DNA from: Phycisphaerales bacterium
Lineage (GTDB): Bacteria; Planctomycetota; Phycisphaerae; Phycisphaerales; SM1A02
Direction of reading: 5' to 3'
NCBI GenBank assembly: GCA_030748575.1
Contig: JASMLR010000014.1
Span: 1-42,406, forward strand
DNA: 42,406 nt
Part shown: positions 11,209 through 31,039 of the stretch, in pieces
Layout: the number at the start of each line of letters is the position of its first letter
How positions within the stretch are numbered: the stretch's first letter is position 1
The notes under the pieces: model-generated
Told to the model about the DNA's origin: nothing
What the model saw: the letters and a program-made list of their open reading frames with translations, nothing else
The model's database searches: none
Position numbers and translations under genes: made by a program

Positions 11209-14370
<3,162 letters not shown>

Positions 14371-26265: not shown

Positions 26266-28068
26266 ATGGAGCCCTGCGTGCCTGTGGCGACCAAGAAGAA
26301 ATCACGAAAGCGGGCCACGGCCGAGTCCATGGCGGCCGGCCAGCGAGAGATCTCGGTCAGCGAATTCTTCGCCAAGAACCGGCATCTGCTCGGCTTTGAC
26401 AATGCCCGAAAGGCCATGCTCACGACGGTCAAGGAGGCCGTCGACAACGCGCTGGATGCCTGCGAAGAAGCCGGCATCCTGCCAGCGCTGCGGATCCAGC
26501 TGCTGCAACTGGACGAGACCCGCTTCAAGATCACTGTGCAGGACAATGGCCCGGGCATCGTCCGCAAGCAGATCGAGAACATCTTCGGCAAGCTGCTCTA
26601 CGGATCCAAGTTTCACCGCATGAAGATGAGCCGGGGCCAGCAGGGCATCGGCATCTCTGCAGCCGGCATGTACGGCCTCATGACGACGGGCAAGCCGGTC
26701 AAGATCATTTCGAAGACCGGACCGAAGAAGCCCTCGCACGAAGTCGTCCTCAAAATCGACACCTCGAAGAACCGAGCCGAGGTCGTCAGCGACACCGAGC
26801 ACCCGGAGGACGACAGCCTCTTCCCCGAGGGTCGCGGCACCATTGTCGCGATCGAACTCGAAGGCAAGTATCAGAAGGGTCGCCAGAGCGTCGACGAGTA
26901 CCTCGAACAGACCGCGATCGCCAATCCGCATGCCACCATCACGTACATCACGCCCGCCAATGAGACCATCGAGTTTCCGCGAGCAATGGACGAACTCCCT
27001 GAAGAGGCCAAGGAGATCAAGCCCCACCCGAAGGGCATCGAACTGGGCACGCTCATTCAGATGCTGGAGCGGACCGAGGCGCGGCAACTGGGGGGATTCC
27101 TTCAGAAGGACTTCTGCCGGGTAGGCCAACAGAAAGCAAAGCAACTCGCCGAAGGCGCCGGCATGACTGCGAGAACGTGGGTCAAGAACGTTGGCCACGC
27201 CGAGGCCGAGAAGCTCTACAAGTCCATTCAGGACACGCGTATCACTTCGCCCCCGACCGACTGCCTCGTGCCGATCGGCTCGAAGGCGCTGCTCGCCGGC
27301 CTGCTCAAGGAAGTCAAGGCCGAGTTCTTCGCCGCCGCCACCCGGCCCCCCGCCGTCTACCGAGGCAACCCCTTCCAGATGGAAGTGGCCATTGCCTTCG
27401 GAGGGGAGCTCAAGACGGAAGAGACCGCCCGCATTCTGCGCTTCGCCAACCGCGTGCCGCTGCTGTATCAGCAGAGCGCGTGCAGTTCCTTCAAGGCCGT
27501 CGTCGAAACCGGCTGGAAGAACTACAGCCTTCAACAGCCCCGCGGCGCCCTTCCAACCGGCCCGCTGGTCATCATGATTCACATGGCGAGCGTCTGGGTG
27601 CCTTTCACGAGCGAGTCCAAGGAGGCCATCGCCGACTACGACGAGATTCGCAAGGAAATGCGGCTCGCCCTGCAGGAGTGCGGGCGCAAACTCGGCACCT
27701 ACCTCCGCCGCCGCCAGCGAATGAAGAAAGAGTCGGAGCGGCGAAGCATCTTTGAGCGATACATCGGCGAGATCGCCCAGGCGTGCAATGCCATCACTGG
27801 CGTCGACGCCAGGAAGCTGTACGCCGCACTGCAGAAGCAGGCGGCAAAGAAGACGGCCGAAGCCGACCAGATGCTGGACGATGAAGGCAAGGTCCTTGAT
27901 GGCGGCGGACGGCTGGCCAAGGACAGCGATGTCATCATCGTTGAGGACCTGCAGACTGGTGGGGACGATGCCCCGGATGAGGAAGACCTCTTCGGCGGTG
28001 TCACCTTGAAAGGTCGCCGCAAGAAGACCCGAAAGAAAGTGTCGCGAACGAAGAAGGGGAACCGCTGA
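26266..28068 (+). CDS. top6B: DNA topoisomerase VI subunit B
   Basis: A 600-residue GHKL ATPase subunit of type IIB topoisomerase VI, which relaxes and decatenates DNA. ATP-site motifs are E58AVDNALDA, QD93NGPGI and SRGQQGIGISAAGMYG. An H2TH-like part (DFCRVGQQKAKQLAEGAG) and a transducer domain (ENY-like NYSLQQPRGALPTGPLVIMIHMASVWVPFTSESKEAIADYDEI) follow, in the order of archaeal Top6B. Both ends are basic: ATKKKSRKR near the N-terminus and KGRRKKTRKKVSRTKKGNR at the end. The start could instead be GTG 26278, which has GGAG 6 nt upstream. The stop TGA shares one base with the top6A start. Topo VI is mainly archaeal and plant; bacterial copies are sporadic. Confidence 0.95.
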   Translation: MEPCVPVATKKKSRKRATAESMAAGQREISVSEFFAKNRHLLGFDNARKAMLTTVKEAVDNALDACEEAGILPALRIQLLQLDETRFKITVQDNGPGIVRKQIENIFGKLLYGSKFHRMKMSRGQQGIGISAAGMYGLMTTGKPVKIISKTGPKKPSHEVVLKIDTSKNRAEVVSDTEHPEDDSLFPEGRGTIVAIELEGKYQKGRQSVDEYLEQTAIANPHATITYITPANETIEFPRAMDELPEEAKEIKPHPKGIELGTLIQMLERTEARQLGGFLQKDFCRVGQQKAKQLAEGAGMTARTWVKNVGHAEAEKLYKSIQDTRITSPPTDCLVPIGSKALLAGLLKEVKAEFFAAATRPPAVYRGNPFQMEVAIAFGGELKTEETARILRFANRVPLLYQQSACSSFKAVVETGWKNYSLQQPRGALPTGPLVIMIHMASVWVPFTSESKEAIADYDEIRKEMRLALQECGRKLGTYLRRRQRMKKESERRSIFERYIGEIAQACNAITGVDARKLYAALQKQAAKKTAEADQMLDDEGKVLDGGGRLAKDSDVIIVEDLQTGGDDAPDEEDLFGGVTLKGRRKKTRKKVSRTKKGNR

Positions 28069-29279
28069 TGGCCAGGAAGACGACGGGCAAGAAGACCGCT
28101 TCCAAGAAGACGGCCAAGAAGGCGGCCAGGAAGAAGGCGAGTACGCGCAAGAAGGTGGCGACCAGGCGCGGCGGGGCCGTCTCGAAGGAACGCGACAAAG
28201 TCACGACCCGCGCCATCGAACTTCTCGCCGACGGCGTCGCCCGAGACGGGCTCAAGGGGCGGGAGCCGAGCGTCGAGATACCACTTCGAACGGTCTCCAA
28301 TATGAAGTGGAACAAGCGCAAGCGCATCCTTGAGATGGGTGACTCCACGCAGTCCAGAACCCTCTTCAACGTGGGACAGGCGCGGAAGTTCATGCAGACA
28401 CTTCTGCTGGCCAAGGGGAGCCGCGAACTCATCAAGGCCGAGAAGACGCTCAGCCTTCGTGGTATGTACTACATGTCCCTGCACACGATCGAAGGGACAA
28501 AGGAAAAGACGTTCAACGATCAGAGCGAGTCCGACACGGTGCTGGAGGACCTTGAAGTCTCACTCGGCGGCCTGCGTGAAGAACTGCATGTCTTTGCCAA
28601 GAAACGCGGCACCATGGTCGGCAACATCACCATCGAGGACAATGGCGACGAGATTGACTGCCGCCGCATGGGCACAGGCGGCTATGCCATTCCAAGCATC
28701 TGTGAGCCAAGTGTGATTCAGTTCAAGAAGTGCGACGCCAAGTTCGTTCTTCATGTCGAGAAGGACACGGTCTGGAGCCGCTTCAATGAAGACCGATTCT
28801 GGGAAACGCACAACTGCATCCTGACCGAAGGGTCGGGCCAGCCCCCACGGGGTGTACGGCGACTCCTGCACAGGCTCAACACCGAACTCGGCCTGCCCAT
28901 CTACTGCCTGCTTGATTGTGATCCGTGGGGGCACTACATCTACAGCGTCATCAAACAGGGCTCGATCAATCTCGCCTTCGAGAGTCAGCGAATGGCCATC
29001 CCGGATGCGAAGTTCATCGGCATCCGCGCCGATGACTACGACCGCTGCGACCTCTCCCCCGATGTCCGCATCGCGCTCAACGACCGCGACATCACCCGCG
29101 CCCAACAGATTGCCGACTACCCATGGTTCAAAGACAAGCGGCCATGGCAAAAGGAAATCAAGAAGCTGCTCGCCAATGGTTTCAAGATGGAAGTCGAGTC
29201 GCTCATCACCAAGGACATCTCCTACGTCACCGAGGAGTATGTCCCGGCAAGGCTCAAGGCGAAGGACTTTCTGGACTGA
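28068..29279 (+). CDS. top6A: DNA topoisomerase VI subunit A (Spo11-like)
   Basis: A 403-residue cleavage subunit of topoisomerase VI. The winged-helix (CAP-like) domain carries LRGMYYMSLHT with the tyrosine pair Y134-Y135; the family's catalytic tyrosine is the second. DQSESDTVLEDLEVSLGGLREELH and GGYAIPSICEP follow. The TOPRIM metal site is E231 (HVEKDTVW) and D283xD285 (LLDCDPWGHYIYSVIKQGSINLAFES). All needed residues are present, so it should be active with Top6B. Unlike archaeal Top6A, it begins with a 35-residue tail made almost only of Lys, Ala, Thr and Arg (KKTASKKTAKKAARKKAS), like a bacterial histone H1-type tail. ATG 28068 overlaps the top6B stop by one base (TGATG). Confidence 0.95.
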   Translation: MARKTTGKKTASKKTAKKAARKKASTRKKVATRRGGAVSKERDKVTTRAIELLADGVARDGLKGREPSVEIPLRTVSNMKWNKRKRILEMGDSTQSRTLFNVGQARKFMQTLLLAKGSRELIKAEKTLSLRGMYYMSLHTIEGTKEKTFNDQSESDTVLEDLEVSLGGLREELHVFAKKRGTMVGNITIEDNGDEIDCRRMGTGGYAIPSICEPSVIQFKKCDAKFVLHVEKDTVWSRFNEDRFWETHNCILTEGSGQPPRGVRRLLHRLNTELGLPIYCLLDCDPWGHYIYSVIKQGSINLAFESQRMAIPDAKFIGIRADDYDRCDLSPDVRIALNDRDITRAQQIADYPWFKDKRPWQKEIKKLLANGFKMEVESLITKDISYVTEEYVPARLKAKDFLD

Positions 29280-29380: not shown

Positions 29381-29533
29381 CAAACTCGACGGGCAGTCGA
29401 CCATGCACGGGGCGTGGAAGCCCTGTCTGGGGGCCGTGTAACGACAAGGGCCACCTCCTGATCCCAAGAGCCTCTGGCACCCCACCCCGTCGCCAGTGGA
29501 GGCACGAATCAATCGGGATGGGAGTCCATACCG

Positions 29534-29558
29534 GCGATCCGATACCATGGCGGATCGC
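29534..29558 (+). promoter_or_regulatory. Palindrome enclosing a -10 box before the ANTAR regulator
   Basis: GCGATCCG (29534-29541), a 9-base spacer, CGGATCGC (29551-29558). The hexamer TACCAT (29543-29548) lies in the spacer, as in the gyrB promoter. Likely an operator or an alternative promoter with a 40-nt leader. Confidence 0.5.
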
Positions 29559-29597
29559 GCTGCCTTGCTTGCAGCACGGAAAGGGAGGTCGTCCTGG

Positions 29598-30212
29598 ATG
29601 ACGAACGAATCCGCACAGCCCATTCCCCCGCATCCGCAGCGGGTACTCGTCGCAGACGATGAGCACCTCGTGGCGACCGGGACCGTCGCGGCCCTGGAGG
29701 ACCTCGGATTTGAGGTCGTCGGCACGGCCGGGAACGGCGAGCAGGCCGTTGCGATGTGCCGCGACGAGCCGCCCGACATCGCCCTGCTCGACATTCGCAT
29801 GCCCGGTCTGGACGGCCTTGGCGCGGCCGAGACGATCTACAACGAGATGCAGGTGCCGGTGATCATGATCTCGGCGTACTCCGATCCGGAATACGTGTCG
29901 ACGAGCAACCGCGTTGGCGTCTTTGGCTATCTGCTCAAACCCGTCACGCGGGACCAACTGCGGGTCGGCATTGAAGTCGCCTGGTCACGCTTTCTCAAGC
30001 ACATTGAACTGTCCGATGAAGTTGGCTCTCTCCAACAACGGCTTGAGCAGCGGAAGATCATCGAGCAGGCCAAGTGGATCATTGTCAAGCAGAAGAGCGT
30101 CGAAGAACCAGAGGCGATGCGGATGCTGCAGAAGCAGGCTCGCAATGGCCGCAAGCCGCTCGTTGAGATAGCCCGAGCGGTTGTGGACAGCGAGACGCTG
30201 TTGGGCGACTGA
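29598..30212 (+). CDS. Response regulator with ANTAR RNA-binding output domain
   Basis: A 204-residue regulator. The receiver domain (about 14-128) has the acid pair D20-D21, phospho-acceptor D65 (ALLDIRMPGLDG) and K114 (LLKPV). A coiled segment (ELSDEVGSLQQRLEQRKIIEQAKWIIV) leads into an ANTAR domain (about 145-200) ending EAMRMLQKQARNGRKPLVEIARAVV. ANTAR proteins of the AmiR/NasR/EutV type bind paired hairpins in nascent RNA and prevent termination, so this is likely an RNA-level regulator. ATG 29598 has GGGAGG 9 nt upstream. A histidine kinase gene converges on it with 2 bases between, a plausible partner. Targets are not known. Confidence 0.92.
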   Translation: MTNESAQPIPPHPQRVLVADDEHLVATGTVAALEDLGFEVVGTAGNGEQAVAMCRDEPPDIALLDIRMPGLDGLGAAETIYNEMQVPVIMISAYSDPEYVSTSNRVGVFGYLLKPVTRDQLRVGIEVAWSRFLKHIELSDEVGSLQQRLEQRKIIEQAKWIIVKQKSVEEPEAMRMLQKQARNGRKPLVEIARAVVDSETLLGD

Positions 30213-30214
30213 CC

Positions 30215-31039
30215 TCAGGCCGCCGGCAGGGAGATGGTGAAAACCGTGCCTTTGCCGACTTCGGAATCGACAGTCAAGGTTCCACCATGCTCCTCGATGA
30301 TTCGCCGTGTGGTGGGAAGGCCCAGGCCCGTTCCGCCAGATCGCCCCGATACATAGGGATGAAAGATCTCTTCCAACTTGCCCGCCGCGATTCCCGGACC
30401 GGTGTCCGTGACCGTGATGCGAACCCCGCCGGCGTCTTCGGATGCCTGCACGAGCAACTCGCCCGCCTGGTCCTCGGGGCCGTCCTGTGACATGGCCTGC
30501 ACCGCATTGATCATGAGGTTCAGCAGGGCCTGCTTGATGAGCCCTTCATCGACCGCCATCTCGAGCGGGCTTTCCGGCACCTGCACCCGAAGCACCACCC
30601 CCGACTGATCGCACTGCGGGTGGTAGAAATCGCCGAGCTGCTCGATCAATCGGCCCAGGTCCCGCCTCTCGGCATGAATGTGCACGCGACCGGCAAACTG
30701 AAGAAAGTCGCTGAGGATGCCCCCGAGCCGCTCCACCTCCCGCTGCAGGGTCTCGACGCGGCGAACAAGCCTGTCCCGCTCATCCTGAGCGAGCGGCGCC
30801 TGCTGGAGGTCCTCAATGAGCAGTTGCGCATTGAGCCCCACCGTCGAGAGTGGATTCTTGATTTCGTGCGCAAGCCCGCCGGTCATAGCGCCCAGTTCTG
30901 CGAGTCGCTGACTGTGCCTCGCCTCGCCTTCTGCATCGCGAGCCCGACGCTCCGCACTTCGAAGCATGGCGAAAAAGATCGGTGCCAGCACGACCAGAGT
31001 CGCGCCGGCACCGATCAGAATCCAAAGTGCAGGGTGCAC
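30215..31039 (-). CDS. Sensor histidine kinase with one N-terminal membrane helix
   Basis: A 274-residue kinase. Residues 3-25 form a single membrane helix (ALWILIGAGATLVVLAPIFFAML) with almost no periplasmic part, so sensing is probably in the membrane or cytoplasm. The HisKA domain has the phospho-acceptor H58 (GGLAHEIKNPLSTVGLNAQLL). The HATPase domain has LINLMINAVQAM-like N box (LLNLMINAVQAMSQ), DTGPGIAAG, and GRSGGTGLGLPTTRRIIEEHGG. It ends next to the ANTAR regulator (tail to tail), suggesting a two-component pair, though partners in this arrangement are not certain. It starts at GTG 31039, 9 bases after the pnp stop on the same strand, so read-through from rpsO-pnp is possible. Confidence 0.9.
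   Translation of the reverse strand: MHPALWILIGAGATLVVLAPIFFAMLRSAERRARDAEGEARHSQRLAELGAMTGGLAHEIKNPLSTVGLNAQLLIEDLQQAPLAQDERDRLVRRVETLQREVERLGGILSDFLQFAGRVHIHAERRDLGRLIEQLGDFYHPQCDQSGVVLRVQVPESPLEMAVDEGLIKQALLNLMINAVQAMSQDGPEDQAGELLVQASEDAGGVRITVTDTGPGIAAGKLEEIFHPYVSGRSGGTGLGLPTTRRIIEEHGGTLTVDSEVGKGTVFTISLPAA

Follow-up and report, generated by a model that had tools for sequence, protein, structure and literature searches.

Among the closest described relatives of the enzyme considered here is the DNA topoisomerase VI (topo VI) of Methanosarcina mazei, which has been reported to be a preferential decatenase (PMC8837201). It works distributively and about 50-100 times more slowly than type IIA enzymes in vitro, and the authors of this finding postulate a missing factor that would give it more processivity or the right chromosomal context (PMC5922973). 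Topo VI has also been recorded in 17 bacterial families, and the bacterial sequences were placed inside archaeal clades, with at least two transfers (Allen and Maxwell, 2024; PMC11302465). Five of these families are recognizable as planctomycete from their names and, according to a figure legend of that paper, are without topoisomerase IV (topo IV). Here, we describe the top6B and top6A genes in a stretch of 42,406 nucleotides (contig JASMLR010000014.1 of assembly GCA_030748575.1, forward strand; hereafter the window) from a Phycisphaerales bacterium, whose genome assembly comprises 2.38 Mb in 85 contigs, is 97% complete and includes the window as contig 5. The genes encode a complete and probably active topo VI that quite likely takes the part of topo IV as the decatenase of the cell, alongside gyrase and topoisomerase I (topo I). 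Tails predicted to be disordered have been added to its core. One of these tails harbors a strongly conserved Leu-Phe (LF) motif. No description of the tails or of the motif was found among the best-ranked open-access publications at the level of titles and abstracts, and a term search of the main text of PMC11302465 gave no occurrence of "lysine", "tail" or "planctomyc".

Identity of the Topoisomerase VI Subunits

The following features of the window concern the enzyme core and gyrase:

26266-28068, forward strand: top6B, DNA topoisomerase VI subunit B, 600 amino acids (Pfam and NCBIfam families, structure match, conserved residues)
28068-29279, forward strand: top6A, DNA topoisomerase VI subunit A, 403 amino acids (families, structure match, conserved residues)
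28470-28472, forward strand: codon of Top6A Tyr135, the catalytic tyrosine by homology, invariant in 42 aligned rows
11234-13774, forward strand: gyrB, the sole GyrB/ParE-type match (PF00986) in the genome by profile search

Both topo VI genes are intact and overlap by one base within the sequence TGATG at 28066-28070, in agreement with the initial annotation, which had described a complete, adjacent and coupled pair. Top6B matches the Pfam family Topo-VIb_trans (4.5e-60) and Top6A matches TOP6A-Spo11_Toprim (1.2e-57) and TP6A_N (3.2e-15); equivalog cut-offs of NCBIfam are reached twice by Top6B and once by Top6A, and the first match in the PDB for the predicted models of both subunits (predicted local distance difference test, pLDDT, 77.7 and 76.1) is the topo VI of M. 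mazei. The pair thus has the constitution of a type IIB topo VI, namely a Top6B with a GHKL ATPase and a Topo-VIb transducer and a Top6A with a catalytic tyrosine domain and the acidic residues of TOPRIM. Residues E57, N61 and D93-G97 and the GQQGIG motif of Top6B are invariant in 21 aligned rows, as are Y135, E231, D283 and D285 of Top6A in 42 rows. The retention of the catalytic residues that had been noted from the sequence is therefore borne out for the GHKL motifs, the TOPRIM residues and Y135; the other member of the proposed tyrosine pair, Y134, is not among the invariant positions.

The solved enzymes of M. mazei and Saccharolobus shibatae (2q2e, 9o0g, 2zbk) have the same domains, catalytic residues and fold, with identities in the structure search of 47-48% (M. 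mazei) and 31% (S. shibatae) for Top6B and of 30-31% and 34%, respectively, for Top6A. The window enzyme differs from them in having about 30 residues more ahead of the Top6A core and in the C-terminal end of Top6B, which is predicted to be disordered. In the tree of Top6A cores, the nearest row belongs to a Phycisphaerae bacterium, with 92% identity over 360 columns.

In topoisomerase VIII (topo VIII), the A and B subunits are fused. The window pair does not match this enzyme, having top6A and top6B as separate genes with ndk, sigma factor and PNPase genes as neighbors, and an integrated element was not looked for; topo VIII is reported from free or integrated plasmids (PMC11302465). A plasmid origin of the topo VI itself is unsupported, as the three plasmid matches are haloarchaeal and only 33-35% identical.

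Topoisomerase Set and Distribution in Planctomycetota

Profile searches of the source genome gave one match each to PF00521 (GyrA/ParC type) and PF00986, so that a second GyrA/GyrB-type pair, namely topo IV, was not found in this 97% complete assembly; the check for parC and parE proposed in the initial annotation accordingly returned neither. The single GyrA/ParC gene carries TQGRGGKGRRDI in its C-terminal part, near the C-terminus (read by eye), a feature shared with the GyrA-type copies of the sister family f4 but not with its ParC-type copies. With one topo I gene, matched in two pieces, the set of the genome consists of gyrase, topo VI and one topo I, with no topo IV found. The gyrB gene does lie in the window, as had been pointed out, and is separated from topo VI by a gap of about 12.5 kb rather than adjoining it.

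Across 392 Planctomycetota genomes searched with profiles for topo VI and GyrA/ParC (the places of the matches being known for part of them), Topo-VIb_trans was found in 191, including all 10 genomes of the window's family, the source genome among them. The coexistence of topo VI with gyrase, which had been considered uncommon for a bacterium, is thus frequent in this phylum, and gyrase with topo VI and without topo IV has already been published (PMC11302465); the topo VI of Lacipirellulaceae, Pirellulaceae and Anaerohalosphaeraceae in that paper is likewise accompanied by gyrase and not by topo IV. A second GyrA/ParC gene, the count of which may be inflated by split genes in fragmented assemblies, was present in 19 of the 191 genomes with topo VI versus 106 of the 201 without (Fisher p 7e-21), and among genomes of at least 95% completeness in 1/51 versus 43/61. 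Counted by family majority, for families having a genome of at least 80% completeness, the proportions are 4/52 versus 17/37 (p 4e-5). The sister family f4, which belongs to the same order, has a topo VI match in none of seven genomes and two GyrA/ParC genes in all seven. Because topo VI and a second GyrA/ParC tend not to occur together and no topo IV was found in the source genome, topo VI is probably the decatenase, and we read the distribution as a switch between decatenases that took place on more than one occasion in the phylum. An enzyme in this position would be active and presumably essential.

Several observations weigh against so simple an exchange. Of the 201 genomes lacking topo VI, 95 carry no more than one GyrA/ParC (18/61 at a completeness of at least 95%), which means that the absence of topo IV does not always entail a need for topo VI; gyrase by itself seems to suffice for some planctomycetes. 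Conversely, topo VI and a second GyrA/ParC occur together in 19 genomes. Furthermore, three families (f6-f8; loci L118-L127) have no Top6A in the region fetched around Top6B. Top6A is encoded elsewhere in 10/10 genomes of these families, and in 26/28 of all genomes asked, so the top6BA operon is not general.

Two further observations concern the distribution. In most sampled genomes of families f29, f39 and f49, topo VI and a second GyrA/ParC are both missing, which may leave gyrase as the sole type II topoisomerase there. Genome G172 (genus g11) gave no topo VI match, three congeners having one, which could reflect loss or an assembly gap.

A Conserved Leu-Phe Motif in the C-Terminal Extension of Top6B

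Two short motifs lie in the C-terminal extension of Top6B:

27928-27948, forward strand: DVIIVED, residues 555-561, a strand-like motif (VIIV-like in 59/75 long extensions)
27976-27999, forward strand: DEEDLFGG, residues 571-578, with LF at 575-576 (conserved in long extensions)

The initial annotation had singled out the lysine-rich tails as the feature to note and passed over the LF motif, which is strongly conserved in long extensions. From 162 Top6B matches, the two copies of the window (L001 and L092) were removed, and the ends of 149 of the remaining 160 proteins were usable. The extension, counted from ten residues before the end of the core, is at least 80 amino acids long in 75 proteins; the other 74 have a shorter one. 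No dipeptide is more over-represented in the long extensions than LF, which is present in 71 of the 75, compared with a mean of 7.0 and a maximum of 15 in 500 rounds of shuffled tails, and in only one of the 74 short ones. These shuffles ignore relatedness, an effect lessened by identity-filtered representatives, among which LF is retained in 37/40 under 80% core identity, 14/17 under 70%, 12/14 under 65% and 5/7 under 60%. On the tree, LF is present in 67 of 118 rows with 5 state changes, versus at least 33 in shuffles. LF is often preceded by acidic residues, Gly and Pro, its distance to the C-terminus is 0-43 residues, and lysine tracts precede or follow it in many proteins; in the window, DEEDLFGG lies in a stretch with pLDDT below 50. 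Outside the window's order, the sampled planctomycete proteins mostly have a short Top6B end without LF, and their Top6A tails vary in length.

Through such a motif, the enzyme may attach to a partner protein, and some findings limit this interpretation. Among the excluded Top6B proteins, the four in which the profile match ends early (from Laterigemmans, Adhaeretor, Lacipirellula and an unclassified planctomycete) lack LF in their final 60 amino acids; of the other excluded proteins, one of family f53 has SLF with a basic end after it, five are likewise without LF over this length and one is cut by the contig end. In a sample of 372,518 bases of the source genome, comprising 255 crude gene calls, a bare LF occurs within the last 45 amino acids of 26 genes; a stricter pattern fitted to the Top6B motif occurs there in one gene, Top6B itself. 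LF was not seen in the C-terminal ends examined of the topo IV subunits of family f4.

The partner that comes first to mind is the beta-sliding clamp, DnaN, on which Top6B would ride with the replisome and clear precatenanes behind the fork; we consider this identification possible but tentative. The consensus of the clamp-binding motif is QL[S/D]LF or QxxLF, with xxxLF in DnaE3 (PMC12309361; see also PMC4549789 for the bacterial motif), and in these papers the motifs of DnaE, PolC and transposases, many of which lie in flexible segments or at protein ends, have the Leu-Phe at positions 4-5 in common with Top6B. The Top6B motif takes the form x-x-[G/T/S/D]-L-F, reads exactly QSDLF in L003 and QDSLF in L005 and L113, and lies in the window protein in a segment predicted to be disordered. 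One of the two DnaE-type genes of the genome has GQGQLFGG, similar to DEEDLFGG, although its role as a clamp site is read from its position. On the other hand, Gln at position 1, the key residue of QxxLF, is found in only 10 of the 71 proteins and is replaced by E in the window, which also counts against docking on DnaN and leaves clamp binding putative. Among the best 10 of 54 literature matches, no title or abstract links topo VI or Top6B with the sliding clamp.

Alternatively, the motif could dock inside the topo VI tetramer, on Top6A or on the Top6B core, and have no outside partner, which we regard as somewhat unlikely. The upstream strand (residues 556-558) is modeled at moderate confidence, and the restriction of the fitted pattern to Top6B among the 255 sampled genes would suit an internal contact; however, the LF region itself has pLDDT below 50 in the monomer model, and its distance to the C-terminus varies over 0-43 residues.

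The tail of the single-stranded DNA-binding protein (SSB) requires a terminal Phe for its interactions. Mimicry of this tail, by which Top6B would compete for SSB-binding partners, is improbable: 20 of the 71 proteins do end in LF, nine of them after DGPx, and the SSB of the genome ends in SPDDIPF, but LF is at least seven residues from the C-terminus in 29/71.

Basic Tails of Top6A and Top6B

The enzyme has three basic ends, at the N-terminus of Top6A and at both termini of Top6B:

28068-28184, forward strand: N-terminal Lys/Ala/Thr/Arg tail of Top6A, residues 1-39 (pLDDT below 50 over residues 1-37)
26287-26313, forward strand: N-terminal basic stretch ATKKKSRKR of Top6B, residues 8-16 (start codon ATG at 26266 or a nearby GTG)
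28009-28065, forward strand: C-terminal basic tract KGRRKKTRKKVSRTKKGNR of Top6B, residues 582-600 (predicted to be disordered)

Residues 1-37 of Top6A are predicted to be disordered in the model, and the tail, being Lys/Ala/Thr-rich and strongly basic, accords in these respects with a histone H1-like sequence. The three ends recognized in the initial annotation do exist, and the suspicion raised there, that the Top6A tail might stem from a wrong start call, was ruled out, because an in-frame MA(K/R/T) lies upstream of the core in 58 of 61 named relatives with an upstream frame. For Top6B, a short start at the internal ATG (window residue 22) was likewise ruled out. A homologous TAE-x-MA-like segment just downstream of the basic stretch is present in 86/110 Top6B frames, which places the start upstream of the internal ATG; the basic stretch is thus likely to be coding, as judged from these alignments.

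Within the sampled part of the source genome, the Top6A N-terminus is the second most basic of the 255 genes, with +14 in the best 30 amino acids (mean 3.6, sd 2.6). A proteome-wide lysine habit is thereby ruled out for this part, only one gene call being more basic. Basic tails are absent from the topo I and GyrA of the genome, so the idea that topo I is also lysine-tailed does not apply. The one more basic N-terminal region belongs to a protein of 453 amino acids (L206:11793-13152, reverse strand), which is lysine-rich near residues 52-80 and whose start resembles, by eye, a type II secretion inner-membrane protein.

The archaeal proteins examined, two species by length and two haloarchaeal plasmid copies by sequence, have no comparable Top6A tail, as the initial annotation had supposed. 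The aligned core starts after 16 (S. shibatae) and 19 (M. mazei) residues in the solved Top6A proteins, compared with 48-49 here; the haloarchaeal plasmid copies have acidic N-terminal ends, and the M. jannaschii entry is a fragment and uninformative on this point.

Planctomycete Top6A tails were compared in 135 proteins, namely 150 matches minus the two window copies, two fragments and 11 without a start; start codons were picked by a rule favoring MA(K/R/T...) and similar starts, and 94 of the 135 proteins begin with MAK, MAR or MAT. The proteins came from two sources that may overlap. A locus scan with six peptide patterns, one of them from the tail itself and hence favoring tailed relatives, yielded 65 loci from Planctomycetota lineages (two labeled "uncultured bacterium"). 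The genome-derived set is without this bias, although its 80 regions were chosen to cover the remaining relatives of the order and class with a match and a spread of families. From the called starts, the tails have a median of 23 amino acids and net +7; the net charge is positive in 134/135, with a single protein at zero or below, and reaches +8 or more in 60 and +15 or more in 29. By the same measure, the window tail has 42 amino acids and net +17, ranking about 22nd to 24th of 135.

The tail is also variable, which weighs against the reading given here: tails range from 5 to 127 amino acids overall and from 14 to 97 within the window's own family (10 genomes), and the six scored members of family f63 have 82-127 amino acids with +29 to +60. 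A quick tree was built from 142 Top6A cores, 130 of them with a scored tail; 54 of its 139 inner branches have good support. On this tree, no fewer than 23 changes are needed for the +8 state, where 200 shuffles give 43 on average and never below 31, and no fewer than 18 for the +15 state, where the shuffles average 25 with a minimum of 21. A positively charged Top6A tail is thus a habit of the phylum, yet a labile one, with some inheritance and much gain and loss, and the proposal that the lysine tails are a conserved novelty is unsupported as it stands, their strong form changing state this often.

One explanation is that the tails are low-complexity expansions that are close to neutral and have no specific role. 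The lengths of 14-97 amino acids within one family and the 18-23 or more state changes fit this view, whereas the positive charge in 134/135, the lack of a proteome habit in the sample, the topo I and GyrA of this genome being without such a tail, and a number of state changes below that of any of 200 label shuffles speak against it, so that we hold it to be rather doubtful. Compensation for a missing topo IV is unsupported, because the most basic tails occur in genomes with a second GyrA/ParC; the median tail charge is +26 in these (n=12, five of them of family f63) versus +5 in the others (n=62), a further point against linking the tails to the loss of topo IV. A correlation between the tail charges of Top6A and Top6B (Spearman 0.55, n=68; 0.26 over all 109) was not upheld by six independent pairs.

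Variants of Top6B and Neighboring Genes

In L047:1447-3381 (Adhaeretor), and also in L043, L050 and L052, the Top6B transducer contains an insert of about 73 residues. It resembles a second H2TH copy (a one-to-one BLAST in L047 aligned 65 residues without gaps at 28% identity, E 2e-8), and such a duplicated H2TH domain, if true, would add a second DNA-bend sensor. In families f72, f53, f81 and f98 and in genome G300 of f94, the transducer profile matched in two pieces, perhaps owing to a similar insert or to a split gene. Downstream of top6A in the window, an ANTAR-domain response regulator gene (29496-30212, forward strand) and a histidine kinase gene (30215-31039, reverse strand) lie tail to tail.

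Possible Function and Mechanism

A role of this topo VI as a Spo11/MksG-like nuclease in defence or recombination rather than as a decatenase, such as Top6A-like proteins are reported to have elsewhere (PMC13040014), is extremely improbable in view of the full ATPase-transducer subunit, overlapping genes, intact motifs, equivalog-level NCBIfam matches, the best structure match to M. mazei topo VI and the mutual avoidance with a second GyrA/ParC. As a decatenase, the core would work as in archaea: ATP would close Top6B, Top6A would cut one duplex with Tyr135, and a second duplex would be passed through.

The three basic ends probably bind DNA non-specifically and would thereby give the enzyme a higher affinity for DNA or a longer stay on it. 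Low-complexity stretches rich in lysine are a described theme in prokaryotic DNA-binding proteins, including topoisomerases (PMC6821194), and in Streptomyces topo I, lysine repeats make the enzyme more processive (PMC7398561). The Streptomyces enzyme shares with topo VI a lysine-rich addition to a topoisomerase, but is of type IA, has its tail at the C-terminus and is not homologous to topo VI. The chlamydial histone H1-like protein Hc2 (PMC2848022) has a likewise lysine-rich and length-variable DNA-binding sequence, and is a free histone-like protein, whereas the topo VI tails are part of an enzyme. By analogy with Streptomyces topo I, the basic tails, which the initial annotation had suggested as DNA anchors, would lengthen residence on DNA, and the LF motif would give targeting, probably by docking on a partner. 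If the partner were DnaN, the enzyme would be placed on freshly replicated, intertwined sisters.

Taken to its full extent, this would mean that Phycisphaerales replaced topo IV by a topo VI fitted with a replisome tether, made up of the LF clamp motif and the lysine tract in the disordered Top6B tail. We think this unlikely as a whole; if true, a slow decatenase of archaeal type would be carried along by the clamp immediately behind the fork, and the tether would thus be the postulated processivity or targeting factor. Planctomycete topo VI, with its basic tails and conserved docking motif, has built-in candidates for the factor missing in M. mazei, and Planctomycetota, in which topo VI and topo IV are largely mutually exclusive, offer a natural experiment on the exchange of one decatenase for another.

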